DNA from: Bacteriovoracaceae bacterium UBA7317
Lineage (GTDB): Bacteria; Bdellovibrionota; Bacteriovoracia; Bacteriovoracales; Bacteriovoracaceae
Assembly: GCA_002474345.1 (NCBI GenBank)
Contig: DKQD01000162.1
Coordinates: 1 to 21,105, forward strand
DNA: 21,105 nt
Reading direction: 5' to 3'
Part shown: positions 1,659-20,189 of the stretch, one piece after another
How positions within the stretch are numbered: position 1 is the first letter of the stretch
Layout of the letters: every line of letters begins with the position of its first letter
Translations under genes and position numbers: made by a program
The notes under the pieces: generated by a model
Seen by the model: only the letters and a program-made list of their open reading frames with translations
Told to the model about the DNA's origin: nothing
Database searches by the model: none

Positions 1659-2924
1659 ATGGAAAAATTTAAGAAAAGTTCACATGTTGTCCTTACTTCA
1701 CATTATAAACAAATATTTAAAAAATCGATTGAGATCAAGTGGGGGGCTAAAGACCCTATTGAAAGAGGTCCTATTGTAGGGACAATCTCTGAAAAAGAGA
1801 ATAGAAATGCTATAGGAACTCACAGTGGTTCTTATACCGTTTACAGAGCATTATCTATAGCTTCAGGTCAATACGAAAGGGATCATAAACCAGACTTAAA
1901 AAATACCGATATGACGACAGAGCTGGGACCTTTCGATTCTTGGTCAGACCCGAAGAAAATAGTTTCTCTTGATCCTTGGGGCGCAAGTGTAAGTAAAACT
2001 TTTGATCCTTATATTAGTAAGGGTTACAATATAGCTCCTACAATAGCAGTTACCCAGGCTCACCTTCAAATTCCTGAAATAGCTGAAGCTATTGAAAAGG
2101 GAAGACTCAAGCCTGATGGGAAGTTGTTACTTTCTTCCAATGATATAAAGGTAACCAAAGCCGCTATTGAGCCCGTATGGTATTTACCAGGAATAGCAAA
2201 AAGGTTTGGGGTAGATGAAGGAGATTTGAGGAAAGTCCTCTTTGAGGAGACAGGAGGAATGTTTCCTGAGCTTGTAACAAGGCCTGATTTAAAAATTCTT
2301 CTTCCCCCAATAGGGAGTTCAACGGCTTATATATTTGGTGATCCTAAAAATCTATCCAACCCTAAGGTCACACTTACCTGTAGGGTTCATGATGAATGTA
2401 ATGGAAGCGACGTTTTTGGTTCCGATATTTGTACTTGTAGACCCTATCTAACTCATGGAATTGAGGAAGCTGTTAAAACAGCACAAAATGGTGGTGTAGG
2501 TCTTATTGTTTATTTTCGGAAAGAAGGAAGGGCCCTAGGTGAAGTCACAAAGTTTTTAGTCTATAATGCCCGGAAGCGACAATCTGGAGGGGATTCAGCA
2601 TCCAATTACTTTCATAGGACTGAATGTGTCGCTGGTGTTGTTGATGCAAGGTTTCAGGAGTTCATGCCGGATGTTCTTCACTGGTTTGGCATTCAAAGAA
2701 TTCATAACTTAATATCTATGAGCGATATGAAGTATGATGCGATCGTAAACAGTGGCATCAAAGTTGATAAAAGGATTTCAATACCAGACGAATTGGTTCC
2801 AGATGATGCACGCGTTGAAATTGAAGCCAAAAAAGCTGCAGGTTATTATGTACCAGAGGATTCAGATGACCGCGTTAGTGTAAAGGAACTTGATAAGGTA
2901 AAAGGAAGAGACCTAGATGACTGA
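1659..2924 (+). CDS. URC1: URC1-type GTP cyclohydrolase II-like protein, uracil degradation
   Basis: The protein has 421 residues, about twice the length of a stand-alone RibA. The C-terminal half (about 210-400) is a GTP cyclohydrolase II domain. It holds the zinc-binding set RVHDEC...CTC with Cys247, Cys258 and Cys260, the YFRKEGRA loop at 285-292 and the D-x-R pair Asp329/Arg331, equivalent to the catalytic region of RibA. The roughly 200-residue N-terminal part (with TTELGPFDSWSDP) is not in RibA and is typical of the URC1 branch. In the yeast URC pathway Urc1 is required for uracil breakdown and does not make riboflavin; its exact reaction is not firmly known to me. The DUF1688 and uracil phosphoribosyltransferase genes directly downstream strongly support the URC role. 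Its stop overlaps the next start by 8 bases. Automated annotation would probably call it ribA, which I think is wrong. Confidence 0.87.
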   Translation: MEKFKKSSHVVLTSHYKQIFKKSIEIKWGAKDPIERGPIVGTISEKENRNAIGTHSGSYTVYRALSIASGQYERDHKPDLKNTDMTTELGPFDSWSDPKKIVSLDPWGASVSKTFDPYISKGYNIAPTIAVTQAHLQIPEIAEAIEKGRLKPDGKLLLSSNDIKVTKAAIEPVWYLPGIAKRFGVDEGDLRKVLFEETGGMFPELVTRPDLKILLPPIGSSTAYIFGDPKNLSNPKVTLTCRVHDECNGSDVFGSDICTCRPYLTHGIEEAVKTAQNGGVGLIVYFRKEGRALGEVTKFLVYNARKRQSGGDSASNYFHRTECVAGVVDARFQEFMPDVLHWFGIQRIHNLISMSDMKYDAIVNSGIKVDKRISIPDELVPDDARVEIEAKKAAGYYVPEDSDDRVSVKELDKVKGRDLDD

Positions 2925-4140
2925 TGATTCTGATAATAACCTCAAATACATTTTTTCAACCGGTGCAATTAGGGATAAAGCAGAGTTTTTGTTTAATTGT
3001 TTGATGGAAGGTAGAACTCATTTTCACCTTTTCCCCGAAAAAATAGATGATGTTGTTCAGTACATTTTGGATGTAACAGAAAAGAATTATCCAGATGGAA
3101 ATATACCTTTTCATTCTAGGTGGGGGCACTTCGATGTAGGAGGGATTAGAAGACTAGAACAGTTGGAAAAGCTTTTAGGTGATTTAGGGCCTAAAGAAAA
3201 GGCTTTAGCGAAATTAGATTTGGTTGTTATTTCCGTTCTTCTTGATGCAGGAGTTGATCCAAATTGGAGTTATAGAGAGGAGTCTAATGGTAGAACTTGG
3301 AGTAGGTCTGAAGGCCTTGCTGTTATGAGCATCAAAGGCTTTCAAAAAGGTTTTTTCTCAAGCGACCCAAAGAAGCCTTATCAGGTAGACTCTGAGGGGC
3401 TCCTAAAGATAAGTTTGGAAGACCTTGGAAGTTTAATGCAGGATAGCCTTGATAACCCTGTAACTGGTCTTTCTGGACGTTTACGGTTGCTGCATTCTTT
3501 AGGAGAGGAACTCGGGAAAAATGAAGGTTATTTTCCCAATCAAAGGCCTGGAGGTTTGCTGACCTATTGGGAAAACAAGTTTGGGAATAATATAACAGCA
3601 TCTCAAATCTTGGAAACTCTCTTGTATTCTCTAAATAAAATTTGGCCATCTAGGGTAGAGAGAAATGGCATTCCTCTTGGGGATGTCTGGGAGCATCCGC
3701 TCTTAGGTCCTAAAGGATCTTGGGAAGGCCTCATTCCTTTTCATAAGTTATCTCAATGGTTGACTTATTCTCTTATAGAGCTACTTGAGGAAAGTGGTAT
3801 GAAGGTGAAAAATGTTGGCGAATTAACGGCGCTGGCTGAATATAGAAATGGGGGATTGCTTGTAGATTTAGGTTTAATACGCCCTAAAAATACGGATTTC
3901 CTAAATCAGGTTTTTGGGCCTGACTCTGAAATTATTGTCGAGTGGAGGGCCCTTACAATTGCAACTTTTGATAGGTTAGCTGCACAAATTAGGAAAATGA
4001 AAAACTTTGATGAAGAGAGTTTTCCTTTGGCAAAAATGTTAGAAGGCGGGACATGGCACGCTGGAAGAAAAATTGCCAAAAAATTGAGAGAGGATGGATC
4101 ACCACCATTTAAGCTGAAAAGTGATGGAACTGTTTTTTAA
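2917..4140 (+). CDS. URC4: DUF1688 protein, URC4-type uracil degradation factor
   Basis: The 407 residues match DUF1688 along the full length. Family landmarks are IPFHSRWGHFDVGG (63-76), DLVVISVLLDAG (101-112), WSYREESNGRTWSRSEGLAV (117-136), FPNQRPGGLL (206-215), GDVWEHPLL (255-263), LIPFHKLSQWLTYSLIE (272-288), LAEYRNGGLLVDLG (306-319) and the ending FPLAKMLEGGTW...KSDGTVF. In L. kluyveri the homologue Urc4 is needed for growth on uracil as nitrogen source; its biochemical activity is unsettled. No signal peptide or membrane segment is visible, so it is cytoplasmic. It starts 8 bases inside URC1 with GGAAGAG (2904-2910) as ribosome-binding site, so the two are probably translationally coupled, which fits proteins acting together. 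Confidence 0.92.
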   Translation: MTDDSDNNLKYIFSTGAIRDKAEFLFNCLMEGRTHFHLFPEKIDDVVQYILDVTEKNYPDGNIPFHSRWGHFDVGGIRRLEQLEKLLGDLGPKEKALAKLDLVVISVLLDAGVDPNWSYREESNGRTWSRSEGLAVMSIKGFQKGFFSSDPKKPYQVDSEGLLKISLEDLGSLMQDSLDNPVTGLSGRLRLLHSLGEELGKNEGYFPNQRPGGLLTYWENKFGNNITASQILETLLYSLNKIWPSRVERNGIPLGDVWEHPLLGPKGSWEGLIPFHKLSQWLTYSLIELLEESGMKVKNVGELTALAEYRNGGLLVDLGLIRPKNTDFLNQVFGPDSEIIVEWRALTIATFDRLAAQIRKMKNFDEESFPLAKMLEGGTWHAGRKIAKKLREDGSPPFKLKSDGTVF

Positions 4141-4178
4141 TTAATGTGCTTGTTGAAACTTTTTTAAGGAATTAGAAG

Positions 4179-4829
4179 ATGAGTGAGAATTTAGAGATCG
4201 TTTCGCATCCAGTCGTTCAACATAAATTAGGCCTTTTAAGAAAGGTTGAAACAACTTCCCCAGAGTTTCGCTTAATTGTGCAGCAATTGAGCCCATTATT
4301 GGCTTATGAAGCTTGCAGGGACTGGTTTATCCAAGAAGAAAAAGAGGTCCAAACTCCTATGGAGGAGTTTGCAAAAGCAAGGTTTATTGCTGACTGGCCA
4401 GTTCTTGTTTCTATTATGAGGGCAGGTAACGGTATGTTAGACCCAATACTTTCTCTTTTTTCTTCTAGTGCTGCGGGGCATATTGGCATCTATAGAGACA
4501 AATTTATAAAGAATACCGTCGAGTATTATTTTAGATTGCCTGACAATGTTCAAGATAAAAATATCCTTTTACTTGATCCTCTTGTTGCGACAGCCGATAC
4601 TGTGATTGCTTCAATTGATAGGTTGAAACAATATGATGTTGGTGAAATTAGGATGCTAACTCTTTTGATATCCAAGCTTGGTGTATCAAAAATTAAGAGT
4701 TTTCACCCTGATGTGAAGATTTTTGCAGCAGGATGTCAAGAGGGGCTTGATTCGAACGGATATCTTGTACCAGGGTTGGGAGATGCCGGTGACCGCTTGT
4801 ACCAAATTAATAATGGAAAGCATCTATAA
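4179..4829 (+). CDS. upp: Uracil phosphoribosyltransferase (URC6-type)
   Basis: Its 216 residues are close to the usual length of about 208. The enzyme joins uracil to PRPP to give UMP. Visible signatures are SIMRAGNGMLDP (78-89), GHIGIYRDK (100-108), the PRPP loop DPLVATADT (133-141) and the uracil-binding end GYLVPGLGDAGDRLY (194-208). The PRPP loop is unusual: ordinary Upp proteins have DPMLATGGS/T there, while this one has Ala139 and Asp140 in place of the two glycines. In the yeast URC pathway Urc6 is the uracil phosphoribosyltransferase, and the neighbours place this protein in that role rather than in plain salvage. AAGGA (4166-4170) precedes the ATG with good spacing. It lies 38 bases after URC4. 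Confidence 0.9.
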   Translation: MSENLEIVSHPVVQHKLGLLRKVETTSPEFRLIVQQLSPLLAYEACRDWFIQEEKEVQTPMEEFAKARFIADWPVLVSIMRAGNGMLDPILSLFSSSAAGHIGIYRDKFIKNTVEYYFRLPDNVQDKNILLLDPLVATADTVIASIDRLKQYDVGEIRMLTLLISKLGVSKIKSFHPDVKIFAAGCQEGLDSNGYLVPGLGDAGDRLYQINNGKHL

Positions 4830-4893
4830 ATCAGATGTCTTCCTAGGTTTTGGTGAAATGGCTTTTGCTTAGTGCTCTTTGGGGATGTTATTC

Positions 4894-5517
4894 ATGGAAT
4901 CAGTTTTAGTTCTTGGTGTGGCCGGTGGTAGTTGCTCTGGAAAGACAACTCTTACGCATTTTTTAAAAAAGTACTTTGGTGACGATGCTGCTGTTTTAGC
5001 ACAAGACAGTTTTTATATTGATCAAAGTCATAAATTTGATTGCGATGGGGGAAGTGTCAATTTTGATCACCCGGATAGTATAGATTTTTCATTAATGGGT
5101 CAGTGTGTCAGTTACCTAAAAGAAAGCAGAGAGGTCTCAATTCCTATTTATGATTTTGCTACTCATAAGAGGTCCGAAGAAGTTCAAAAAGTTTCCTCTA
5201 AAAAGCTCGTGATTATTGATGGAACTTTAATTTTGTCTCAGGAAAAAGTGAGGGGAAAACTGGATCTTTCTTTTTTTATTGACGCACCTGAGAATGTTAG
5301 GTTTCAAAGGCGTCTTGAGAGGGATACAAAGGAAAGAGGAAGAACTGAGCAAGGGGTAAAAGATCAATTTTATAAGCAGGTCAAGCCAATGCATGATGAA
5401 TGGGTAGAGCCATCAAAAACTCATGCGACCCATATTTTTCCTGGAACTATAGACTTCTCTGCGAGTTCAGATTTACAGGCCATTTTAGAAAAGATAAAAA
5501 AAGACTTGCTTCTTTAG
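4894..5517 (+). CDS. udk: Uridine kinase
   Basis: The 207-residue protein phosphorylates uridine (and usually cytidine) to the monophosphate. It carries the P-loop GVAGGSCSGKTT (8-19), QDSFYIDQSHKFD (37-49), NFDHPDSIDFSL (56-67), IPIYDFATHKR (83-93) and the lid RRLERDTKERGR (139-150), all aligning well with E. coli Udk (213 residues). I chose ATG 4894 because GGGGA (4881-4885) sits at proper distance; the frame also offers TTG 4879 and ATG 4885, which would add a few residues without a ribosome-binding site. It follows the phosphoribosyltransferase after 64 bases with no terminator between. In this context it would supply UMP from uridine alongside UMP made from uracil. Confidence 0.92.
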   Translation: MESVLVLGVAGGSCSGKTTLTHFLKKYFGDDAAVLAQDSFYIDQSHKFDCDGGSVNFDHPDSIDFSLMGQCVSYLKESREVSIPIYDFATHKRSEEVQKVSSKKLVIIDGTLILSQEKVRGKLDLSFFIDAPENVRFQRRLERDTKERGRTEQGVKDQFYKQVKPMHDEWVEPSKTHATHIFPGTIDFSASSDLQAILEKIKKDLLL

Positions 5518-5569: not shown

Positions 5570-8500
5570 ATGATGACGGTTGAAGAAATTAACGATGTCC
5601 CTTTAAAGTTGGGCGCCGAAGATTGGACTTTTTGCTTTTATAAGCATTTGACACCCTTTTTTTTAGACGATCGTGGTTATTTATCGGAAAGTATTAAGAA
5701 AATTTTTCTAAATTTAACAAATTTAAGAAAAAACAATTTTAGAAAGCAGCTTCATATAAAGTCTGTACCTTTCCTTGTAGGCTTTTTTTTCGATGAGAAG
5801 AAAATAAGAATTAGTTCTCCTAGGTTAGGAAGAGAGCTATTTTTAATTACTGAACTTGAAAACTATTCTTGGCCGGAAGCTTCCAATGAAGAAGAAAAAT
5901 TTGAGGCTTTTAAAAATCATGCTGATAAATTAGCTTCTTTAAAAATAGCAGATACTCCTTCAGAGATAGAACTTTTAACTTCGAACTACAAACTTCCAGA
6001 TTTACTAACAGAAAAAAAATATACATCGGATATAGAAGTTGAAAATAAAAAATTGGTCAAAGAAATATTAAGGCTTCTTAACCAGTATAATCCGAGTTTG
6101 TTTGAGAGAGTAAGCGATTTTGGTTTATCTCTTACCGCAGAATATGCCCTGATCAGAATTCACTTGTTAAAATTTTTAGCAATACTCCCTTCTCTAGATT
6201 ATGATTTGTCTGGTTATGAAGTAAAAAGAATTTTGCTGGAGTCCGTTAGAAGATTATTAGATGATTCAAAAACAGCCAAAGCTAAAGAGAGGAAAGGTCA
6301 AGCAAAGGCCATACCTTTGTTTCTATTTTTTCCCTTATACCTCTTTTATATCTTAGCTTCTCTAACGCCAGCATTATTTTTGGCAAAAACCATAAGGTCT
6401 TCCGTTCGCTTTTTGGCAAGAAGATTTATCGCTGGTGAAAGTATAGAGCTCGCCTCTGAGTCTTTGGGTAAACTTTACCAAAGTGGAAGAGATGCAACTC
6501 TAGATCAACTGGGTGAACTTGTTGTTTCAGAAAAAGAAGCTGATCACTACCTTGATGAGGTTTTAAAATTAATTAAAGGGTTTTCTTCCCATGTTCCTAA
6601 AGGTGCAAAGAATAAAGCAGGTGTGAATCGGGCCCATGTTTCAATTAAAGTGTCCGCTTTGTCCTCCGATTTTAAGCCCTACGCATTTGATTATACCTAC
6701 CGGAGTGTTGCTCCTCGTTTAATAAAAATTTTATTAGAAGCAAAAAAAGAAGATGTTTTTATCAATATCGATGCTGAACATATTCACTATCGTGATATTG
6801 TTTTTCAAATTTATAAAAAAGTTCTTTTGGAAACAGACGAGCTTAAGACATTTTCTGCAACAGGAATTGTTATTCAAGCGTACTTAAAGGATGCTTTTGT
6901 TCATTTTGAGGAAGTTCTTTCTCTTGCAAAGGTTAGAGGCTTGACGATGCCTATAAGGTTAGTAAAAGGAGCTTATTGGGATGCAGAAACTTTTGAGAGT
7001 GATGCCCATAGTGTAGAAGCTCCCCAATTTCTCAATAAGGAGGAGACCGATTTACACTTCAGGCAGCTAATTATAAGAACCTTTGAAGCATCACCTCATC
7101 TGCTTCTTTGTTTAGCGTCCCATAATTTTTCAGATCATTGCTTTGCTAAAGTGATTCAAAAAAAATACTTTGCTGAAACACCAGAGTTCGAGCATCAATG
7201 CCTTCATATGACTTACGAAGCTTTGTCTACGTCTTTAGGTCAAATGGGATGGGCCGTGAGAAATTATGTTCCAGTTGGAAGCCTCATTGTCGGCATGGCG
7301 TATCTTGTAAGAAGGATTATGGAAAACTCTTCTCAAGTTGGTGTGCTGACTATAATGAGATCTCATAAATCGGCAAAAGGCCTTTCTACTCCAACAAATG
7401 TTCACTTAAACAAAAGAGAAAAAGGAAACTTAAAAAGAGAAATAACTTCTTCAAGTCTTATAAAGGAGTTTTTTAATACTTCTCCTGTACGGATGTATTA
7501 TGAAAATGAGAGAGCTTGGGTAGAAAAGAGTATGATCTCATTTCGTGAAAAAGGTCTTACTTCTTTTTATAAAAACCCTTTTGAGCTAAAAGGTGAGAAA
7601 ACCGATATAATATCTTCTTCAGATACGGGTATTTTAGTAGGGTCGATTACTTTTGGAACAAAGGAAGATGCTGAAAGAGCTCTCGAGACTTCTTCAAAAT
7701 ATTACAATCAAGGACTTTGGTCTAAACTCAGCTGGCAAGAGAGATCATCACTTCTTCTTAAAGTAGCTGAACTTCTTACTTTGAGAAGAAATGAGTTCGC
7801 GTCTTTAATTGTATATGAAGCCGGAAAAACTATTTTAGAGGCATTAGGTGATGTTGATGAAGCAATAGATTTTTTGGATTTCTATGCCCGTGAAGAGGGA
7901 GTGATTCAAAAAAGAGAAAATGGTGAAGTTCTAAGTAGAGGGGTAACGGTTGTTATTTCTCCTTGGAACTTTCCTTTAGCAATTCCTTGCGGAATGGTCT
8001 CAGCTCCTCTCGTCGCTGGAAATACCGTGATATTAAAGTCTGCAGAGCAGACTCCTCTTGTTGCCCAAAAATTGATTGATCTTTTTCATGAAGTAGGGGT
8101 TCCAAAAGAAGCTTTAATACACTGTCCTGGAGAAGGAGAAGTTGTTGGTGATGCTCTTGTGAACAGCCCTCGAACTGCAGCCATAGTTTTTACAGGATCG
8201 AGAGCAGTCGGTAGCGCTATTTTCAAAAAAGCTTCACAAAGAATGATCAAGAATGAACTTCATGGAAATGTATATCCTGTGAAAGTTATAACTGAAATGG
8301 GTGGTAAGAATGCCATTATTGTTACGGCCAATGCTGAATTGGATGAAACGGTTTCAGGAATTCTTTATTCTGCTTTTGGTCATGCGGGGCAAAAGTGTTC
8401 GGCAGCTTCTCGTATCCTTGTAGATGAAAAGGTCTTGGATAGGCTAAAGGAAAGATTAAAAGAGGCTTGCTTGGATATGGAGGTTGGAAAGGCCTTTAAT

Positions 8501-9766
8501 TTTTCTACTACTTTGAACCCAGTGATTTCATTTGAAGATAAAAATAGATTAAAAGGGCAAGCCGAAGAGATTGTGAAAGAGGTTGAAAGTTTTGGTGGTG
8601 AAGTTATTGTTAACAGGGTTCATGAGGACCTCCCGGGGTATGCTGTTGGCCCGATGGTAGTTGAATTGCCAAAAAGTAGGGCTTTGGATGAAAAAAGTTT
8701 TGCGATAAGAGAATTATTTGGACCTATAATTCATTTAATACCTTTTAAAAGCTTGAAAGAGGCAATTAAAATCTATAACGGAACAGAATACGCTCTAACA
8801 GGTGGTATTTACTCACAATCACAAGATGATATTGATTACGTCGTATCAAAAATTGAATCTGGTAATGTCTATGTAAACAGAACAATTACAGGTGCAAGAG
8901 TTTCCATTGAGCCTTTTGGTGGCTTTAAATTCTCGGGGACAGGCCCTAAGGCTGGAGGTAAATCTTATGTGGGAAGCTTCCATTTGTTTAAAGAAGGGCT
9001 TTCAAAAAGTGAAGATCTTGTTTTAGACAAAGAGGAAGAAGGATCAGCTTATCAATTCGACTTATGCTTAAACTCTTCTAGTCAGCCAATGAAAAGCAGA
9101 AATGAAGAAATATTCTTCCTAGGCCTTAAAGAAATAGAAAAGTCATTAGAAAGCTTGTTTGGTGGAATTTACTCCAGGCCTCGTGATGTTTTAAAAGAAC
9201 TGGAAAGTTGGGTTAAAGTAAAAAACTTATCTGAAAGTATTGGGAATAGAATGATACCGGGGCAGTTGAGTTTTAATAATTACTCATTAAGTGAAATGGG
9301 GATCGTCGTATTTGGCTTGAATAAAAAACCAGATTTATCTACCCTCCTTTATGTGCTGATTTCTGTTTATAAAGGAGTTGGTGTTACAGTTTTAACAAGG
9401 GGTAAGGAAAGTTATTCTTTCTGGGAAACAATAAGGTCTTCATTTGGAAAGAATGGTCTCTCTAAAAGCTCCTTTGATGTATTTTTTACTAATGAATCTT
9501 TAATGCTTGAAAGTTTGAAGCATCCTGACTGTAGAAGTTATATTGTTGATGCTAGTGAGAAAAAAATAAAGGATCTTCTTCACTCTATTTATTCCGAAAG
9601 CACCTCAACAGATAGGCATATGAAAAGTATTTTGACACCTCTCGATGCTCCATCTGTTAGAGACTTTGATAAGTATTTTGAGCAGATTTCATTAGTCAGA
9701 GCTTTTGCAGTTAATATTATGAGGCATGGAGCTCCAATGGACTTAGATGGAGAGCATTTAAATTGA
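5570..9766 (+). CDS. putA: PutA: proline dehydrogenase and P5C dehydrogenase fusion
   Basis: This 1398-residue protein oxidises proline to glutamate in two steps. Residues 1-245 are a weakly conserved N-terminal region with no visible ribbon-helix-helix DNA-binding domain. Residues 248-271 are strongly hydrophobic and flanked by Lys/Arg. The FAD-binding proline dehydrogenase barrel spans about 290-600 (SIKVSAL 358-364, INIDAEH 398-404, RLVKGAYWD 463-471, YLVRRIMEN 578-586). The NAD-dependent P5C dehydrogenase spans about 640-1140, with ISPWNFP 796-802, catalytic Glu909 in ITEMGGKN and catalytic Cys943 in GQKCSA. Residues 1160-1398 form an extra C-terminal domain like the degenerate ALDH-like domain of long PutAs; its end ISLVRAFAVNIMRHGAP resembles their conserved C-terminal motif. 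GGAGG (5561-5565) precedes two adjacent ATGs. The gene overlaps proC by 4 bases. With no RHH domain it cannot repress itself as E. coli PutA does. Confidence 0.95.
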   Translation: MMTVEEINDVPLKLGAEDWTFCFYKHLTPFFLDDRGYLSESIKKIFLNLTNLRKNNFRKQLHIKSVPFLVGFFFDEKKIRISSPRLGRELFLITELENYSWPEASNEEEKFEAFKNHADKLASLKIADTPSEIELLTSNYKLPDLLTEKKYTSDIEVENKKLVKEILRLLNQYNPSLFERVSDFGLSLTAEYALIRIHLLKFLAILPSLDYDLSGYEVKRILLESVRRLLDDSKTAKAKERKGQAKAIPLFLFFPLYLFYILASLTPALFLAKTIRSSVRFLARRFIAGESIELASESLGKLYQSGRDATLDQLGELVVSEKEADHYLDEVLKLIKGFSSHVPKGAKNKAGVNRAHVSIKVSALSSDFKPYAFDYTYRSVAPRLIKILLEAKKEDVFINIDAEHIHYRDIVFQIYKKVLLETDELKTFSATGIVIQAYLKDAFVHFEEVLSLAKVRGLTMPIRLVKGAYWDAETFESDAHSVEAPQFLNKEETDLHFRQLIIRTFEASPHLLLCLASHNFSDHCFAKVIQKKYFAETPEFEHQCLHMTYEALSTSLGQMGWAVRNYVPVGSLIVGMAYLVRRIMENSSQVGVLTIMRSHKSAKGLSTPTNVHLNKREKGNLKREITSSSLIKEFFNTSPVRMYYENERAWVEKSMISFREKGLTSFYKNPFELKGEKTDIISSSDTGILVGSITFGTKEDAERALETSSKYYNQGLWSKLSWQERSSLLLKVAELLTLRRNEFASLIVYEAGKTILEALGDVDEAIDFLDFYAREEGVIQKRENGEVLSRGVTVVISPWNFPLAIPCGMVSAPLVAGNTVILKSAEQTPLVAQKLIDLFHEVGVPKEALIHCPGEGEVVGDALVNSPRTAAIVFTGSRAVGSAIFKKASQRMIKNELHGNVYPVKVITEMGGKNAIIVTANAELDETVSGILYSAFGHAGQKCSAASRILVDEKVLDRLKERLKEACLDMEVGKAFNFSTTLNPVISFEDKNRLKGQAEEIVKEVESFGGEVIVNRVHEDLPGYAVGPMVVELPKSRALDEKSFAIRELFGPIIHLIPFKSLKEAIKIYNGTEYALTGGIYSQSQDDIDYVVSKIESGNVYVNRTITGARVSIEPFGGFKFSGTGPKAGGKSYVGSFHLFKEGLSKSEDLVLDKEEEGSAYQFDLCLNSSSQPMKSRNEEIFFLGLKEIEKSLESLFGGIYSRPRDVLKELESWVKVKNLSESIGNRMIPGQLSFNNYSLSEMGIVVFGLNKKPDLSTLLYVLISVYKGVGVTVLTRGKESYSFWETIRSSFGKNGLSKSSFDVFFTNESLMLESLKHPDCRSYIVDASEKKIKDLLHSIYSESTSTDRHMKSILTPLDAPSVRDFDKYFEQISLVRAFAVNIMRHGAPMDLDGEHLN

Positions 9767-10572
9767 AAGAAGAAAAAAAGATAAAGTTAGCAGTTTTAGG
9801 TTGTGGTAATATGGCCGCCGCTTTAGTGACTCGTTTTTGTAATGAGTTTGAAAACTTGGACGTTTTTACTTTCACTCCAACAAATAAAAGGGCCGTTGAG
9901 CTTGCTGAAAGGGTTGGTGGGCAAGCCTGTAAAACAATAGTAGAAATACCAGAATGCCAATTCTACTTGGTTGGATGTAAGCCACAGCAATTTGATGAAT
10001 TAGCAGAAATGTTAAGACCCCACTTAAATGGTAGTGCAGTTATTGTTTCCATGATGGCCGGGAAGAGCACAGAAGTGATTAGTAAAAAATTGGAGTCTCC
10101 AAAAATAATTAGAGTAATGCCTAATACGCCTTCTCAAATAGGAAAAGGCGTTCAATTACTTTACTTTTCTAAAAGTGTGGATGCAAATGAGCAAAACTTT
10201 GTGGAAGAGCTATTTAGCTCTTCAGGTGAACTTTTTATTTTTCAAAATGAAGACCAAATTGACTTAGTAACACCTCACTGTGGTTCTGGACCAGCTTTTA
10301 TCTTTGAGCTTGCAAGAATTTTAATTGCTGACCTTGAAGAAAAAGGTATCAGTCGTATTGGGGCTGAAAAGATGATAAAATATATGCTTTATGGGGCATC
10401 GTCTTTGTTGCTAAATAGCACAGATTCTCCAACAGAGTTAAGAAATATGGTTACTTCTAAAGGTGGTGTAACAGCAGAGGCCTTAGGTGAACTTGAACGA
10501 GGAAATTTAGAAGAGGTTTTTAAAACAGCTATAAAGAAAGCCCATAAAAGAGCCAAAGACCTTTCTTATTAA
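9763..10572 (+). CDS. proC: Pyrroline-5-carboxylate reductase
   Basis: The 269-residue protein reduces P5C to proline with NAD(P)H, the last step of proline synthesis. The N-terminal Rossmann motif is LAVLGCGNMA (9-18), followed by the MPNTPSQIGKG segment. The C-terminal dimer domain has HCGSGPAFIFEL and NMVTSKGGVTAEAL, the family signature. The start is TTG 9763, which overlaps the putA stop TGA (9764-9766); GGAG (9749-9752) lies upstream. This indicates translational coupling to putA. It is odd to find the biosynthetic reductase coupled to the catabolic enzyme, because together they can run a proline/P5C cycle. Confidence 0.93.
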   Translation: MKEEKKIKLAVLGCGNMAAALVTRFCNEFENLDVFTFTPTNKRAVELAERVGGQACKTIVEIPECQFYLVGCKPQQFDELAEMLRPHLNGSAVIVSMMAGKSTEVISKKLESPKIIRVMPNTPSQIGKGVQLLYFSKSVDANEQNFVEELFSSSGELFIFQNEDQIDLVTPHCGSGPAFIFELARILIADLEEKGISRIGAEKMIKYMLYGASSLLLNSTDSPTELRNMVTSKGGVTAEALGELERGNLEEVFKTAIKKAHKRAKDLSY

Positions 10573-10583
10573 GGAGAGTCCAC

Positions 10584-11489
10584 GTGTTGATTGATAAAAT
10601 AAACCTTAACCTCTTAAGAATTTTTGAAAAGGTTTATGAAACAAAGAGTATGACTCGGGCCAGCCAAGAGCTTTTTATGACTCAGTCAGGAGTGAGCCAA
10701 AATATTAAGCATCTTGAAGAAATTCTTGAATTAAAATTATTTGATCGTGTTAAGCAAAGGCTTCTTCCAACAGAGAAAGCCTCAATCCTCTATGAGAATT
10801 GTAAAAAAAACCTTAGAGGGATTGAGCAAACTTTGTTGCGGGTAACTGAAAAAGAAGAGGAGCTAATGGGAAGTGTTTCTATTGGCTTACCGATAGAGTT
10901 TGGAAACAATTTGGTCCTGCCATTGCTGCATAAACTTGGTGAAAAGTATCCTAAGGTAACCTATAGAATTAAGTATGGATTGGGGCAGTCAATTAATAAG
11001 GAGCTTTTGTCGGGAGGGTTGGACTTTGCTTTTGTGGATGATTTTAATTTTGATAAAAGAATTAAGTTAAAGAAAATTACAGATGAGACTTTAGTCATGT
11101 GTGCTTCGGAATCTTATATGGTAAAGTTTGGTCCTATTAAAAATAAAAAGAGTTATTTTGAGAATCTAGATTATCTAGATTATCTTCCTGATGCATTTGT
11201 CACGAGATCATGGTTTAAACATCATTTCAATATGTCTCAGCTTAATTTGAATTTAAGAGCTTCTTTGTTTGATGTAAGTGGTCTTTCTAAAATGATCACT
11301 TTAGGGATGGGTGTCGGTGTTTTACCTCTTTATTTTGTAGAAGCTCTTCAAAAAAGAGGACAAAAATTAGTTAAATTTCAAGGTAGTGGTAAACCTCTAA
11401 AAAATGAGATAAGCGTTGCTTGGTTAGATGGAAAAACAAAGAGTGCAGCCTCAGACTTTTTATTTAATTATCTAACGACATCTTTTTAA
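10584..11489 (+). CDS. LysR-family transcriptional regulator
   Basis: The 301 residues show a typical LysR N-terminal winged helix-turn-helix: NLLRIFEKVYETKSMTRASQ, then TQSGVSQNIKHLEE and LKLFDRVKQRLLPTEKA (about residues 8-68). An effector-binding domain of the periplasmic-binding fold follows from about 90 to the end. The start is GTG 10584 with AAGGAGAG (10571-10578) upstream; the adjacent TTG 10587 is possible. It is 11 bases behind proC in the same direction, so it is probably cotranscribed with the put and perhaps URC genes and is a candidate regulator of one or both. This placement is unlike the classic divergent LysR arrangement. The effector cannot be read from sequence. Confidence 0.9.
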   Translation: MLIDKINLNLLRIFEKVYETKSMTRASQELFMTQSGVSQNIKHLEEILELKLFDRVKQRLLPTEKASILYENCKKNLRGIEQTLLRVTEKEEELMGSVSIGLPIEFGNNLVLPLLHKLGEKYPKVTYRIKYGLGQSINKELLSGGLDFAFVDDFNFDKRIKLKKITDETLVMCASESYMVKFGPIKNKKSYFENLDYLDYLPDAFVTRSWFKHHFNMSQLNLNLRASLFDVSGLSKMITLGMGVGVLPLYFVEALQKRGQKLVKFQGSGKPLKNEISVAWLDGKTKSAASDFLFNYLTTSF

Positions 11490-12261: not shown

Positions 12262-13143
12262 TTAGGCAGCCGACGCTCCCTCTATATCAAGAAAGAGGAT
12301 CTCTTCTTCCTCTAATTTATAGAAAACGTAATGTTTCTCGTTGTCTTGACTTAGTGTTTCAAGTTCGTAAACTTCTTTTGGTCCAAGCTCTATCACTTCT
12401 TCTGTAGCGTCGGCAATCAAGCCGATTATATTTTCTTCGACATTCATCACAATAATAGATTTTAGGTCTTCACCATTTATTGGCACAACATCCTTGCTCG
12501 ATTTATTTTCAATTTCATAGGGTGAGTTTAATATGGGGATGATTTCGCCCCGCAGACTGACCAGCCCAGCAAACTTTTTTTGTTTAATGGGAAGTTTTAT
12601 AACATTTTTTTTATTTACAACCTCTACTAGATGATCAAGGTTAATGGCAAATTTCTTCTCACCTTTGACGAATGTAAAGAAAAGAGATTTCCTTTTTTTT
12701 ATTTTTGTCTCTTCTTCTTGATTTTCAGAAGGGTCTTTATTTTTATCTATTATCCAATTATCAAGAAACTTGAGAGGCTCATTTTTATTTGGTACCAAGT
12801 TGTCTCGATCTTCAAATCCTTTTTTCAATTCTACACAGTATCTTTCAAGAACTCTAAAACTATCAGAAATGAAAAACTTTAAAATAGTAAGGTCGTCTTC
12901 AGATATATTTTTTTTTGTCTCGAGAACAACTTTTATTTTTTTAAGCAGCTCGTTTAATGATATTGATACTTTCAAAAGGTAAGGATAGTCGCATTTTTCA
13001 ACAAAAGCTATAAATGGATCAATAACACTTTTTGTATTATCAAAAAAAGTTTCAGTGTTTATTTTTACATCATTAATGTTTTGACTAATATTATGAAAAG
13101 CCTTTATGTTATCTTCAAAAAAATTTGTGTTGTCTTTTTTCAT
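12262..13143 (-). CDS. CheW-like coupling protein with helical N-terminal extension
   Basis: The protein has 293 residues. The C-terminal part (about 153-287) is a CheW domain: FFTFVKGEKKFAINLDHLVEVV, then the family hallmark LVSLRGEIIPILN (194-206), then IGLIADATEEVIEL. CheW links receptors to the kinase CheA. Residues 1-150 are an extra, charged, helix-rich region not found in ordinary CheW (about 160 residues); it has no membrane segment and no recognisable HPt histidine motif. A Lys/Glu-rich linker (132-152) joins the parts. It follows the hybrid kinase gene by 27 bases on the same strand and surely works with it. No good Shine-Dalgarno precedes the ATG, so translation may depend on the upstream gene. 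Confidence 0.85.
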   Translation of the reverse strand: MKKDNTNFFEDNIKAFHNISQNINDVKINTETFFDNTKSVIDPFIAFVEKCDYPYLLKVSISLNELLKKIKVVLETKKNISEDDLTILKFFISDSFRVLERYCVELKKGFEDRDNLVPNKNEPLKFLDNWIIDKNKDPSENQEEETKIKKRKSLFFTFVKGEKKFAINLDHLVEVVNKKNVIKLPIKQKKFAGLVSLRGEIIPILNSPYEIENKSSKDVVPINGEDLKSIIVMNVEENIIGLIADATEEVIELGPKEVYELETLSQDNEKHYVFYKLEEEEILFLDIEGASAA

Positions 13144-13170
13144 ATATTTTTTACTTTAGTTATTGTTAAA

Positions 13171-15252
13171 CTAAGCTGCTTTATCTTTTTCTTTTATTGA
13201 AAGAATTTTTGTAAATAGCTCACTCGAGGAAATAACAAATGCAAATGTTTCGTCAGTCAAGTAACAAGTACCTCTAAAACCAGGTATTTTAGGGAGAATT
13301 TTATTGAATGGACGAACCACCGTTTCAAGTTGTCTATTTATTTCTTCAATTACAACTGCAAGTTTTTCTCCTTCTTCCTCAAGAACTAGGATTACTTTAG
13401 GTGTTTGGGTATTTGTACTTTCTTTCTCACTAGTATCTAAGAAGTCAGAGTAAGTTGAAATAGGAATATCATCACCTTTAAAATTATATTTTCCATTTGA
13501 AAAAATAGATTTGACTTGGTCTTTATCGATATTCTCTACCGCAATAATGGATTTGGATGGAAAAGCAACATATTCACCTTTATGAGCTCCAATCATAAAC
13601 TTTTCTACAAGAAGGGTTTTTTGAACGGGTATTGTAATTGTTATTTCGGTACCTTTCCCCTTCTCGGAGTTTATATGAATTTCTCCATGAAGTTTATCGA
13701 TATGATTTTTGACCACATCCATTCCAACTCCTCTCCCAGATACGGAAGTAACTTCTTCCGCTGTTGAGAAGCCAGGATGAAAAATAAAATCAAAGATCTC
13801 CTGATCTGTAAGGTGATTTATCTTTATTGGTTCGACTAATTCATTTTTAATTGCTTTAGCAAGGATAAGGTCTTTATCCATACCTTTCCCATCATCTTGG
13901 ACCTTTACAATTATATTATCTTTCGACTCTTTAACTTCAAGAGTAATATTTCCAGAGGGGTTTTTACCGAGACTTTTTCTTTCCTCTGTATTTTCAATAC
14001 CATGATCACAAGAGTTTCTTAGGATATGAGTTAAGGATAAATTTAAGGCTTTTGCTACATTTCGATCAACTGAAATATCAGCACCTTTTATTTCATATTT
14101 TATAAGTTTTCCTAAATCATGAGCAACCGTTCTTATAAGTCTGGGGATTCTATTAAGAAATTTGGCCAAATTAAATTGACGAATCTCCATTATTTTATTT
14201 TGGAATCTATCAGTAATTTTGTTCATATTGTCATAAAGATCTTCTATATCTTTATAATCTTTATTCTTATCTTCTTTCATCTTCTGTTGGATTAATGTTT
14301 TAAAATTATTTTTTAGATTTACTAGGTCACCTGTAAGATTGAGGAGCGAATCTAATTTTGGGTTTGAAACAAAAAGACCATCATCAATATCTAGGCCAAG
14401 AGTAATATCTGCAGCTTTTATTTTTTTCCTAGGGTGTTCTTTTGGATAATCTATATATGTTACTTTTCTTAGATTTGCCTCAAGGTTATCGAGTTCTTTT
14501 ATATACCCTGAAGATATTTTTTCGTTGGAATCCAGAATACTTAAAAGTTTAAGGCAATTATCTTTTGCATCAAGGAAAAGACTTATACCATCAGCATTAG
14601 GCCTCTTTTTATCTTTTTTTATTTTTTGTAAACAAGTCTCCCAGACATGAACAAGTTTTGCAAGAATTTCGCATCCTTCTACCGCCAGGGCACCACCCTT
14701 GATAGTATGAAGTCTTCGGAAAAGGTTGTTCACTGTCTCATCTTCATAGTACTCTTCTTCTAACCTAAGGATATAGTTGTCAGTATTGTCAAAAAGATCC
14801 AATGATTCTTCTATGAAACTTTTTTTAATAAGAAGAAGTTCTCGAGCTTCTTCTTCTTTTTTAGCAATGAAGTCATTTACATGACCTGTAATTATTTTTT
14901 TGAATAGGTTTGGATCAAGCGGTTTTTCAATAAAGTCATTGAGACCTTTTCTCATTCCATCAATAACGAGTTGTTTATCAGCTCTTCCTGTAATCATAAT
15001 GATGTTAGTGTCAGGCAGAATTTTCTTAAGCCTTTTACTGAGCTCTATACCATTTCCACCCGGCATAGAATAATCGACAAGAATAAGAGCAACTTCATCG
15101 TCTTTAGTTTTTACTATAGCTTCTTCTATATTAGAGGCAACAATGGTTTGGACACCTAGATCGATATCTTCAATATAGTCGCAGATGACTTCTCTGACAT
15201 CTTCTTCGTCATCGACGACTAAAATTTTTGGTCTAGGTTCAATTTTTTCCAT
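13171..15252 (-). CDS. CheA-type hybrid histidine kinase with N-terminal receiver
   Basis: From ATG 15252 the protein has 693 residues. Order of domains: receiver (about 8-125; acidic DDEE, phospho-acceptor Asp60 in LVDYSMPG, MITG, EKPLD lysine); HPt/P1 (about 145-240; His182 in LHTIKGGA); linker; P3 dimerisation (about 282-365); P4 ATPase (N box HILRNSCDHGIE, G1 DDGKGMD, G2 GRGVGMD); P5 CheW-like regulatory domain (about 549-687). No P2 (CheY-binding) domain is apparent. Hybrid CheAs normally carry the receiver at the C-terminus, so this order is unusual. All key catalytic residues are present, so it should autophosphorylate and may pass phosphate to its own receiver. A TTG at 15291 would add 13 residues. 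No receptor, CheY, CheR or CheB lies in the window, so the pathway output is unknown. Confidence 0.92.
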   Translation of the reverse strand: MEKIEPRPKILVVDDEEDVREVICDYIEDIDLGVQTIVASNIEEAIVKTKDDEVALILVDYSMPGGNGIELSKRLKKILPDTNIIMITGRADKQLVIDGMRKGLNDFIEKPLDPNLFKKIITGHVNDFIAKKEEEARELLLIKKSFIEESLDLFDNTDNYILRLEEEYYEDETVNNLFRRLHTIKGGALAVEGCEILAKLVHVWETCLQKIKKDKKRPNADGISLFLDAKDNCLKLLSILDSNEKISSGYIKELDNLEANLRKVTYIDYPKEHPRKKIKAADITLGLDIDDGLFVSNPKLDSLLNLTGDLVNLKNNFKTLIQQKMKEDKNKDYKDIEDLYDNMNKITDRFQNKIMEIRQFNLAKFLNRIPRLIRTVAHDLGKLIKYEIKGADISVDRNVAKALNLSLTHILRNSCDHGIENTEERKSLGKNPSGNITLEVKESKDNIIVKVQDDGKGMDKDLILAKAIKNELVEPIKINHLTDQEIFDFIFHPGFSTAEEVTSVSGRGVGMDVVKNHIDKLHGEIHINSEKGKGTEITITIPVQKTLLVEKFMIGAHKGEYVAFPSKSIIAVENIDKDQVKSIFSNGKYNFKGDDIPISTYSDFLDTSEKESTNTQTPKVILVLEEEGEKLAVVIEEINRQLETVVRPFNKILPKIPGFRGTCYLTDETFAFVISSSELFTKILSIKEKDKAA

Positions 15253-15488
15253 TCTGTGTTTCCCAGTCTCTCCACTCAAGTGAAGAAACAACCTTTTTTC
15301 TGTCTCTGGAATTTATCGACTTTATTAAAAAAAACTTTAGAAAAGGCAGAAGAGGTAAACAGAATAATTTGCTCAATATAGCTTTTTTATAAGGTACTTA
15401 TTTCAGGTTTAAGCAGAGTGTATTTTATTACCTGATGAGATCTTTTTTGTTGAGTTAAATAATGTAGCGAATATCAGAGTATTTTCGT

Positions 15489-17747: not shown

Positions 17748-20189
17748 TCATTCGTCTCCAAAAAGACGTGGTAATCCAGATAAGTTATATCGATTTGTAA
17801 TAACTTTCCAGATTGAAACGTCTTCTCTTTTTACAATTTGCTCCCTATCAATCTTATACTTTTTATCTAGAAAATCGTCTACAATTTTTGGTTTGACGGT
17901 CGACTCTGCACCAAGGTCAAAGTTGAGCTCTTCAACTACCTCACCCTTTGTCACCGAATTTGGTTTAAGTGAGGCTGTACTCGATACACCTGTTTTTTTC
18001 GACATTTTTTTTAGGACTCCAGCGGCAGGTCCTTTAATGGGTTTAAGTCCGCCCGAAGGAATCGAGGCCATACTTTTTGCCATGGATATAACGTTTGGAG
18101 AAACACTAGCTTTAAGGAATTTTTTTGTATAATCGTTGCTAACAGGAATTGGTGATTGTCCTTTCTTTTTTAGGTTCTTATTTATCTTTTTTAGCAGCTT
18201 CCCAGCTCCTGTTTTAAAACGAGCTGCGGCTCTAATAAAGTCAGAACTATTTAGTTGACCCGTGGTCAAGTTTCCTTGGTTCAGTGAATTTGATGATTGA
18301 ATTAACTGTGAAGCGACAGCACTTTGTCCTAAAGGTCCATACCCTTGGATATAGGGATTAACTTTATAGCAAGCATTATTACCAGTTTTTTGATCCTTAT
18401 ATTTTTTGCACCTGCAATTAGGATCAAATCTTTGGTTAATAGTTACACAAGCTTGCTGGATTTCAGTTTTAGAAAGTCTTCTGTAGACAGTAGCTTCTAT
18501 AAACGGGTTACGGTTATTCATTTTCCACAAAGAGATACAAGTTTCACTTTTATTTCTATTTTGATTTTTTTTACCTTCCGGTGTGTAGCAATAGCATCTC
18601 GCGTTTCCAATATTGTCTCTACCTTCCGCGCAATGGCCTTCCATTCCTTCTTTGAATTTAACAATAATTGTATCCATATGTTCTACATTTTTTTCAGCTT
18701 GCTTTTCCTGCATGCTAGAGTGGATTGCAAGGTAGGAGGAAAGGCTTCCTGCAATTCCTGCAAAAACTGCAATAACTCTGCTGTCTGCCAGAAATTTAAT
18801 TTTTTGCTTAATTGTTTTAATAGAGTTTTGAATCTTTGAAGGGAGCGCTTTTGTTCCAGCTTTTGCAGAGGTCGCTGCTTTACTGACTCCAGATTTAATG
18901 GCCGTTCCAGCCTTACTCACCCCAGATTTAATGGCCGTTCCAGCCTTGCTCACCCCAGAAGCAATACCTTCACCAGCGGCCTGGGCCATACCCGCTGCTT
19001 GATAGCCTCCCATTTTAATAGCTTCGCCTATAGGAGCTGCAGCACCAAGCGCATGGGCATTTGGAAATATCTGGCTTTCAATCCATTTTCCACCTTGAAG
19101 TGCAAAAAGAAGACCTTCTTTAAATATGCTTTTTTGATCCTGATTGAGGTCTTTTAAAAAGTCGTCCTTAATCATTTGATTATAGGACTGGAGAGTGGGG
19201 GAGCTCTTTTTTCCTTCTCTAAATGATTCAGCTTCTTTGGCCAGGAAAAATGAATTGATTAAGGAGTCTTCTTCTTGAATCAGTGAAATCGTTTCTTTAG
19301 GAAATAAGGTATCTTTGAGGAACTTTGTTGAAGGTACTGTTTCCAAATTATTAAATGCACCTTCTTCTACTGAGGGCGCTCCACCGACGCATGGAGTACC
19401 GTAAGGTGTAAGTTCCCAAATAGCCGCTAGTAATGCTGCTCCATAAAGTCCAGCAACTATGCTGTAAGCAACTTTTTTCTTTTTTGCAACAGACTTGATT
19501 GTTTCCTGTTCTTCTTTTAAGAACTCAAGTGCTTTAAGTTGAGCTTCATAGGCCTTTTCTTCATCATTTACTGTTTCTGAAAAAGCTTCTCTCAGGTCTC
19601 TTAATTCCTTTTCAGCATAAAAATAGTTATAGGCTTCGCTTACAAGATGACCTAATGCTGCTCCTGTCATTATTTTTTTCGATAGACATTGTCCACCAGT
19701 TTCTTTGGCAGCTAAATTAATTGCAACAAGAGTAAGGGTAGAAACAACTGCTCCAGATGTTCCAAGCCATGATACTGGATTTTCTTCCTTCATATCACCG
19801 ACTTGTTCTTTTCTAAGTTTTTCTAGACAAGAATTCCTTTCAGTAAGATCAGTTATTTTTTCGCATTCTAGAAACTTCTGCCTAATTTCTACGCTTTCTT
19901 GTTTATCCATGCATCTATTTAATGATTCATTCCATATTTTTGTGCTACTTTCTAGGCATTCACTTTTTTGTTCGTCCAGAGTTTTAATTGCAGTATTTGT
20001 TGTTGAATAAGGGTTCGTGATAGTTTGGCCGTCATAGGTTTGACTACCCGTCCCTGTATTGGTTGGGGTATTTGGGTCATATTCTTGTGAGTATGAAATA
20101 TTTATTGGTGTTGATAACCAGATAAGTTGAAAAGATAACAAAAATACTTTTATATTGTACAATGATCTTGAAATTATTTTTTGTCCCAT
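17748..20189 (-). CDS. Large exported protein, repeat- and cysteine-containing, unknown function
   Basis: This encodes 813 residues and I do not recognise the family. Residues 1-34 form a Sec signal peptide (basic start, core VFLLSFQLIWLSTPINI, likely cut after SYS). Then come a Thr/Asn/Ser-rich stretch (38-68), charged helices with cysteine pairs (78-121), hydrophobic segments at about 141-160, 238-258 and 470-489, an 11-residue repeat SGVSKAGTAIK (411-443), and a cysteine cluster (520-607) with CYCYTPEGKKN and NCRCKKYKDQ. The C-terminal 200 residues are basic and low in complexity. The pattern suggests a protein anchored in the membrane with periplasmic disulfide-bonded parts. ATG 20189 has only a weak ribosome-binding site. 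It probably precedes the M15B peptidase in an operon, hinting at envelope work. Confidence 0.75.
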   Translation of the reverse strand: MGQKIISRSLYNIKVFLLSFQLIWLSTPINISYSQEYDPNTPTNTGTGSQTYDGQTITNPYSTTNTAIKTLDEQKSECLESSTKIWNESLNRCMDKQESVEIRQKFLECEKITDLTERNSCLEKLRKEQVGDMKEENPVSWLGTSGAVVSTLTLVAINLAAKETGGQCLSKKIMTGAALGHLVSEAYNYFYAEKELRDLREAFSETVNDEEKAYEAQLKALEFLKEEQETIKSVAKKKKVAYSIVAGLYGAALLAAIWELTPYGTPCVGGAPSVEEGAFNNLETVPSTKFLKDTLFPKETISLIQEEDSLINSFFLAKEAESFREGKKSSPTLQSYNQMIKDDFLKDLNQDQKSIFKEGLLFALQGGKWIESQIFPNAHALGAAAPIGEAIKMGGYQAAGMAQAAGEGIASGVSKAGTAIKSGVSKAGTAIKSGVSKAATSAKAGTKALPSKIQNSIKTIKQKIKFLADSRVIAVFAGIAGSLSSYLAIHSSMQEKQAEKNVEHMDTIIVKFKEGMEGHCAEGRDNIGNARCYCYTPEGKKNQNRNKSETCISLWKMNNRNPFIEATVYRRLSKTEIQQACVTINQRFDPNCRCKKYKDQKTGNNACYKVNPYIQGYGPLGQSAVASQLIQSSNSLNQGNLTTGQLNSSDFIRAAARFKTGAGKLLKKINKNLKKKGQSPIPVSNDYTKKFLKASVSPNVISMAKSMASIPSGGLKPIKGPAAGVLKKMSKKTGVSSTASLKPNSVTKGEVVEELNFDLGAESTVKPKIVDDFLDKKYKIDREQIVKREDVSIWKVITNRYNLSGLPRLFGDE
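18856..18954 (-). repeat. 33-bp tandem repeat inside the exported protein gene
   Basis: Bases 18889-18921 and 18922-18954 are 33-bp copies differing at one base. A third, degenerate copy lies at 18856-18888. On the coding strand they encode SGVSKAGTAIK twice, then SGVSKAATSAK. The near identity points to recent duplication. Confidence 0.9.

Follow-up and report, generated by a model that had tools for sequence, protein, structure and literature searches.

Positions 1659 to 5517 of contig DKQD01000162.1 from Bacteriovoracaceae bacterium UBA7317 carry URC1, URC4, a uracil phosphoribosyltransferase (UPRT) and a uridine kinase (Udk), which form a well-supported bacterial URC operon of uracil degradation whose carbon and nitrogen ends would be a new variant. 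The stretch analysed, called the window here, is 21,105 nucleotides long and makes up contig C68 in an assembly of 213 contigs totalling 3.83 Mb, estimated to be 85.6% complete (C, G and L numbers denote contigs, genomes and loci). We consider it likely that this pathway gains carbon, energy and ribose-5-phosphate from pyrimidines and that the nitrogen leaves as urea. With somewhat better than even confidence, we propose both that URC4 is a phosphoribosylurea N-glycosidase of common ancestry with the Qng1 of humans and bacteria and that Bdellovibrionota run a carbon-keeping, urea-losing URC pathway ending in acetyl-CoA, which replaces the reductive pyrimidine (Pyd) pathway in most Bdellovibrionota genomes that have either; in the window genome, both pathways may feed a single malonate-semialdehyde dehydrogenase.

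The original prediction had described a URC-type cluster for bacterial uracil degradation, with udk alongside, and both the reading frames and the Pfam and NCBIfam matches bear this out, as does the linkage of the four genes in relatives. All four are open reading frames on the forward strand: URC1 (1659..2924, 421 amino acids), URC4 (2917..4140, 407 amino acids), UPRT (4179..4829), and udk (4879..5517), with the reading frames of URC1 and URC4 sharing 8 bases (2917-2924). UPRT, the sole match over the Pfam cut-off in the available genome (193.5 bits), is over the cut-off of NF001097 (205 versus 114) and under that of TIGR01091 (192 versus 208). Udk likewise is over the cut-off of NF004018 (197 versus 180) and under that of TIGR00235 (183 versus 220).

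Two samples were used for linkage, 80 URC4 loci from named genomes and 30 relatives from the family picked for carrying URC4. URC1 and UPRT share the locus with URC4 in 73 and 71 of the 80 named loci, respectively, so the gene run is not a matter of chance; the gap between URC1 and URC4 is at most 100 bases in 48 of the 73. Among the family relatives, URC1 adjoins URC4 in 30/30 (split in two in L142), with UPRT present in 29/30 and Udk in 25/30. Among the loci, the nearest relative with a name is Bacteriovoracales bacterium AH-558-A13 (L006), whose URC1 is 83% identical; the coordinates and scores of its matches coincide with those in the same-genus genome G054 (L097, L129).

URC1 matches the Pfam families GTP_CH_N and GTP_cyclohydro2 and the NCBIfam model NF005536 (732.8 bits, cut-off 403). 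The nearest solved structures are PDB 7eev and 7ej3 (E 5e-178), which are 64% identical over nearly the whole length and carry the molecule name GTP cyclohydrolase II under the entry titles “Structure of UTP cyclohydrolase” and “UTP cyclohydrolase”. By sequence, URC1 is an ortholog of this UTP cyclohydrolase, the function of the present copy being predicted, and the match to 7eev identifies NF005536, which is named GTP cyclohydrolase II, as the model of the URC1 group. UTP cyclohydrolase is expected to yield malonic semialdehyde and a phosphoribosylurea, in agreement with the gene context. Residues C247, C258, C260, Y285, R287, E289, and R291 of URC1 are invariant in 14/14 rows (alignment A3), and their putative roles as zinc ligands and active-site residues are transferred from GTP cyclohydrolase II by alignment. 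The predicted URC1 model is poor (pLDDT 59) and served only for reading the PDB titles of sequence relatives. The URC references of PMC12507026 include a paper on UTP cyclohydrolase, which, together with the ortholog solved under that name, makes UTP rather than UMP the most likely substrate of URC1; the original proposal of UMP or a close product as the substrate of the poorly defined steps thus has to be revised.

URC4 covers the full Pfam DUF1688 model (442.8 bits), and a fold comparison finds the Qng1 fold across nearly the whole chain of its predicted structure. Qng1 (DUF2419) is a queuosine-5'-monophosphate N-glycosidase (PDB 7u07, 7u91, 7ulc, and 7ugk). Fold and profile comparison lead us to predict that URC4 is a member of the Qng1 superfamily and a phosphoribosylurea N-glycosidase, with K277 and E308 as the proposed catalytic pair. 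In URC4, residues align with K199, Q202, Y232, and R271 of Qng1, W302 is matched by spacing, and Asp231 is replaced by Glu308; the Lys199 position is Lys and the Asp231 position Glu in 34/34 URC4 rows. A profile comparison (hhalign) with 34 more diverse URC4 sequences matched Qng1 at E 2.4e-6, with a score above all 60 shuffled controls. The window URC4 is under the Pfam Q_salvage cut-off (18.8 versus 25), which 6 among the 120 relatives listed exceed. PDB sequence searches with URC4 (E up to 0.001), with profile A1 and with P0079 did not return Qng1 among their matches, and the relation surfaced by fold comparison and profile-profile comparison. URC4 is about 84 residues longer than bacterial Qng1, and its proposed leaving group, urea, differs from that of Qng1. 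The linkage of URC4 with URC1 argues for a substrate other than queuosine-5'-monophosphate. Q_salvage itself is over its cut-off in 0/144 genomes of the window's phylum (one marginal) and in 5/292 of the phylum of G084. The open-licence literature searched yielded no structure or mechanism for URC4 and no link between URC4 and Qng1, which may have been drawn elsewhere.

The carbon end is suggested by a gene that most relatives carry at the head of the run. An aldehyde dehydrogenase resembling the CoA-acylating methylmalonate-semialdehyde dehydrogenase (MMSDH) lies directly before URC1 in 26 of the 30 family relatives; of the remaining four, two lie at the edge of a contig (G054 and G046) and two genuinely lack it (G030 and G013). 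The gene is also found near the URC genes in 22 of the 80 named loci (in L020, L026, and L059 as no more than a fragment at a contig end), which belong to Bdellovibrionota-type genomes, five myxobacteria and one member of the Cellvibrionaceae, where it follows udk. MMSDH is the best NCBIfam match for all 7 of these 22 dehydrogenases that were scanned, and 5 pass the cut-off of 448.5, the Cellvibrionaceae copy with 690. This match suggests that the C3 product is malonic semialdehyde and that it ends as acetyl-CoA. The window genome has two MMSDH matches over the cut-off, one of them on contig C199. As a replacement for MMSDH, we considered and rejected the aldehyde dehydrogenase domain of the neighbouring PutA, which scores 174 bits against the cut-off of 448.5; PutA is also linked where the upstream dehydrogenase is kept (G007, G053, and G020) and is more likely a plain neighbour of the URC genes.

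In the pathway that we propose, UPRT would convert uracil and phosphoribosyl pyrophosphate to UMP, Udk would make UMP from uridine and ATP, and the housekeeping UMP and UDP kinases would carry UMP on to UTP. URC1, a predicted zinc cyclohydrolase akin to GTP cyclohydrolase II, would then open the uracil ring of UTP to give malonic semialdehyde and phosphoribosylurea, products that fit the gene context. URC4 would act as a Qng1-type N-glycosidase via K277 and E308 to release urea and ribose-5-phosphate, and an MMSDH-type dehydrogenase would turn malonic semialdehyde into acetyl-CoA and CO2. The gene for this dehydrogenase heads the run in most relatives, and in the window genome the enzyme is probably provided by the separate Pyd cluster on C199.

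For the nitrogen end, the original prediction noted that partners for urea-type products were absent from the window and the downstream route open, and it proposed a genome search for urea amidolyase and urease. Neither urease alpha nor CT_A_B, the domain of urea carboxylase, has a match in the 85.6% of the genome available, and the route is more than merely open, since in most relatives the MMSDH-type gene suggests its carbon side. Across 59 genomes of the family, the window genome included, there is no convincing urease alpha, the two marginal matches (23.6 and 21.3 bits) both lying within dihydropyrimidinase-type matches, and CT_A_B occurs in one genome in a frame of 314 amino acids, which is too short for urea carboxylase. 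The genomes behind 49 of the 80 named loci were searched as well. Twenty were assigned to Bdellovibrionota, 18 by name (among them Fluviispira) and two, L010 and L022, from their gene content; for L010, an identical match in family genome G033 supports the assignment as well. Urease is found in 0/20 of these and in 25/29 of the URC4 genomes outside Bdellovibrionota (E < 1e-40), including 4/4 myxobacteria; outside the phylum it is missing from L047, L050, and L085 and marginal in L074. CT_A_B in a frame of more than 1000 amino acids is present in 2/49 (L021 and L047) and in 0/20 Bdellovibrionota, three of which have a frame of about 310 amino acids. A loss of urea in Myxococcota was dropped on account of the urease in all four myxobacterial genomes tested, and the claim is confined to Bdellovibrionota.

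These data also bear on an improbable alternative, a nitrogen-acquiring URC pathway as in Lachancea kluyveri, in which an enzyme that we did not recognise splits urea and uracil serves as a nitrogen source. The role reported for yeast in PMC7530994 and the frequent urease outside Bdellovibrionota speak for it, whereas the lack of both urea enzymes in the window genome, with no convincing one in the family, and a linked gene that would act on the C3 product rather than on urea speak against it.

The window genome also holds a putative Pyd-type cluster on C199 (L114 7874-15053), with MMSDH (569), a carbon-nitrogen hydrolase that is probably a beta-ureidopropionase, an aminotransferase, an NCS1 permease (413, cut-off 353) and PreA (376, cut-off 335); a D-hydantoinase/dihydropyrimidinase over the cut-off lies on contig C27. 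At its front, the C199 cluster has another uridine-kinase-like gene, a divergent one (117 bits, cut-off 180). The Pyd pathway likewise leads to malonic semialdehyde, and its cluster also carries MMSDH, whereas its chemistry differs, needing no nucleotide activation and releasing ammonia, not urea. Of the 59 family genomes, 31 have URC4 and 17 a dihydropyrimidinase over the cut-off, with 4 having both (G000, G054, G020, and G039; 8.9 expected), 27 URC only, 13 Pyd only and 15 neither (one-sided Fisher test ignoring phylogeny, p = 0.005). The corresponding counts are 2/18/11/10 for the 41 genomes that are at least 90% complete (p = 0.004) and 3/23/12/10 for 48 genera (p = 0.002). In G020 and G039, further Pyd genes surround the dihydropyrimidinase (L149 and L150). 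The pattern fits URC and Pyd being two interchangeable routes.

This tendency towards mutual exclusion is one of the points against a reading that we judge marginally less probable still than nitrogen acquisition, namely, that the gene set trims surplus pyrimidine nucleotide (UTP overflow and ribose recycling) instead of feeding on pyrimidines. UTP, the substrate of the URC1 ortholog, is the pool's end product, a second and reductive route for uracil exists in the genome, and a Pfam scan finds no transporter among the genes of the run, all of which would suit trimming. It accords poorly, however, with two salvage enzymes for an outside base and nucleoside in the run, with the C3-product dehydrogenase attached in most relatives, and with the proline-breakdown genes that the run also holds. 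That URC1 is instead the GTP cyclohydrolase II of riboflavin synthesis in a cluster not devoted to uracil is very improbable, as the original prediction had held: although it passes a model of that name and keeps the residues aligned with that active site, URC1 matches E. coli GTP cyclohydrolase II at only 28 bits against 64% identity to UTP cyclohydrolase, falls far below the RibA cut-offs (TIGR00505, 41.7 versus 205.85; NF001591, 55.8 versus 148), shares its locus with URC4 and UPRT in dozens of genomes, and coexists with a separate RibA on contig C194 (204 bits, a frame of 216 amino acids).

Several observations weigh against a carbon-keeping, urea-losing URC pathway with a Qng1-type URC4. 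The window run lacks an MMSDH gene, as do G030 and G013, where upstream DNA is visible, and two of the seven scanned dehydrogenases are slightly under the cut-off (L007, 429; L009, 443). URC is likely not the only uracil degradation route of the window genome, given its Pyd genes, and the URC/Pyd tests do not account for descent. The urease contrast is itself confounded with descent and says no more than that both known urea-splitting systems went undetected; absences in a single genome that is 85.6% complete are weak. Myxobacterial URC loci share the MMSDH link in genomes that carry urease (4/4), so that the MMSDH link and the lack of urease are not tied. As for URC4, its active site differs from that of Qng1 at the D298 position, which is Glu in 22/34 and Gln in 12/34 rows, and the profile match needed a wide alignment: a first comparison with 17 URC4 sequences (E 0.0015, probability 17%) only reached the level of the best shuffled control (score 33.1 versus 32.9). 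Gene content, orthology, fold, conserved residues, linkage and the absence of the two urea enzymes sought in the available sequence are established, and from these we infer that urea is lost and that each of the reactions takes place in this organism.

Other URC loci have neighbours of their own. Two permeases, an ATPase and a Bmp-type binding protein, presumably the make-up of a nucleoside uptake system, lie near the URC genes in seven cyanobacterial loci (L039, L042, L044, L060, L066, L081, and L082), the families being verified on L039 (11052-16527) and extended to the others by BLAST grouping; such nucleoside-type ABC transporter genes fit uridine as a feedstock. A ureidoglycolate-lyase-like gene (PF04115, 42.9 bits in L039) was grouped by BLAST in ten loci, and the Microcoleus and Tychonema loci (L038, L041, L048, and L062) have a protein of about 360 amino acids, cyclase-like by eye, between URC1 and URC4.

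Past udk, the window continues on the same strand, at gaps of at most 52 bases, with PutA (proline dehydrogenase/pyrroline-5-carboxylate dehydrogenase; 5570..9766), ProC (pyrroline-5-carboxylate reductase; 9763..10572) and a LysR-type protein, a putative regulator (10584..11489), which closes the run, so that the run may have seven genes. PutA is linked in 5/30 relatives; in L125, L126, L127, L129, and L136, both PutA and ProC come after the URC genes, placing proline breakdown and synthesis beside pyrimidine breakdown. The LysR gene is also present in L006 and, truncated where the locus stops, in L129 and L136. No Rfam family exceeds its gathering score anywhere in the window, and a known RNA element before URC1 was dropped; scans for promoter-like sites (42 versus 25.3 expected) and terminator-like sites (4 versus 8.1 expected) gave nothing usable. 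Elsewhere in the window are a small, lysine-rich protein made up largely of a SWIB/MDM2 domain (49-351, +; 107.6 bits), a CheW-like protein adjoining a CheA-like kinase that has a receiver domain of its own at the start and an Hpt domain next (12262-15291, -), and two proteins of 393 and 813 amino acids (378-1559 and 17748-20189, both -) with no Pfam match at E 0.001.

The bacterial run shares the core of URC1, URC4 and UPRT (URC6) with the URC system of L. kluyveri (URC1, URC4, URC6, and the URC3/URC5 urea amidolyase), and ribosylurea and urea are expected intermediates in both. In contrast to the yeast, which makes 3-hydroxypropionate, most relatives link an MMSDH-type gene, the uridine kinase lies inside the run, and the window genome has no detectable urea amidolyase or urease. 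In this form of the run, carbon probably goes to acetyl-CoA and urea is probably unused. With URC4, which looks like a cousin of the human enzyme for recycling the vitamin-like base queuine, assigned to the Qng1 superfamily and a residue pair named, its step becomes testable in one assay. If the proposal is right, a nitrogen-scavenging pathway of yeast becomes a carbon-scavenging one in bacteria, which suggests that some predator-type bacteria give off urea. The window genome belongs to a relative of predatory Bacteriovorax-type bacteria; in bacteria living on nitrogen-rich prey RNA, such a pathway would amount to a ureotelic nucleotide metabolism.
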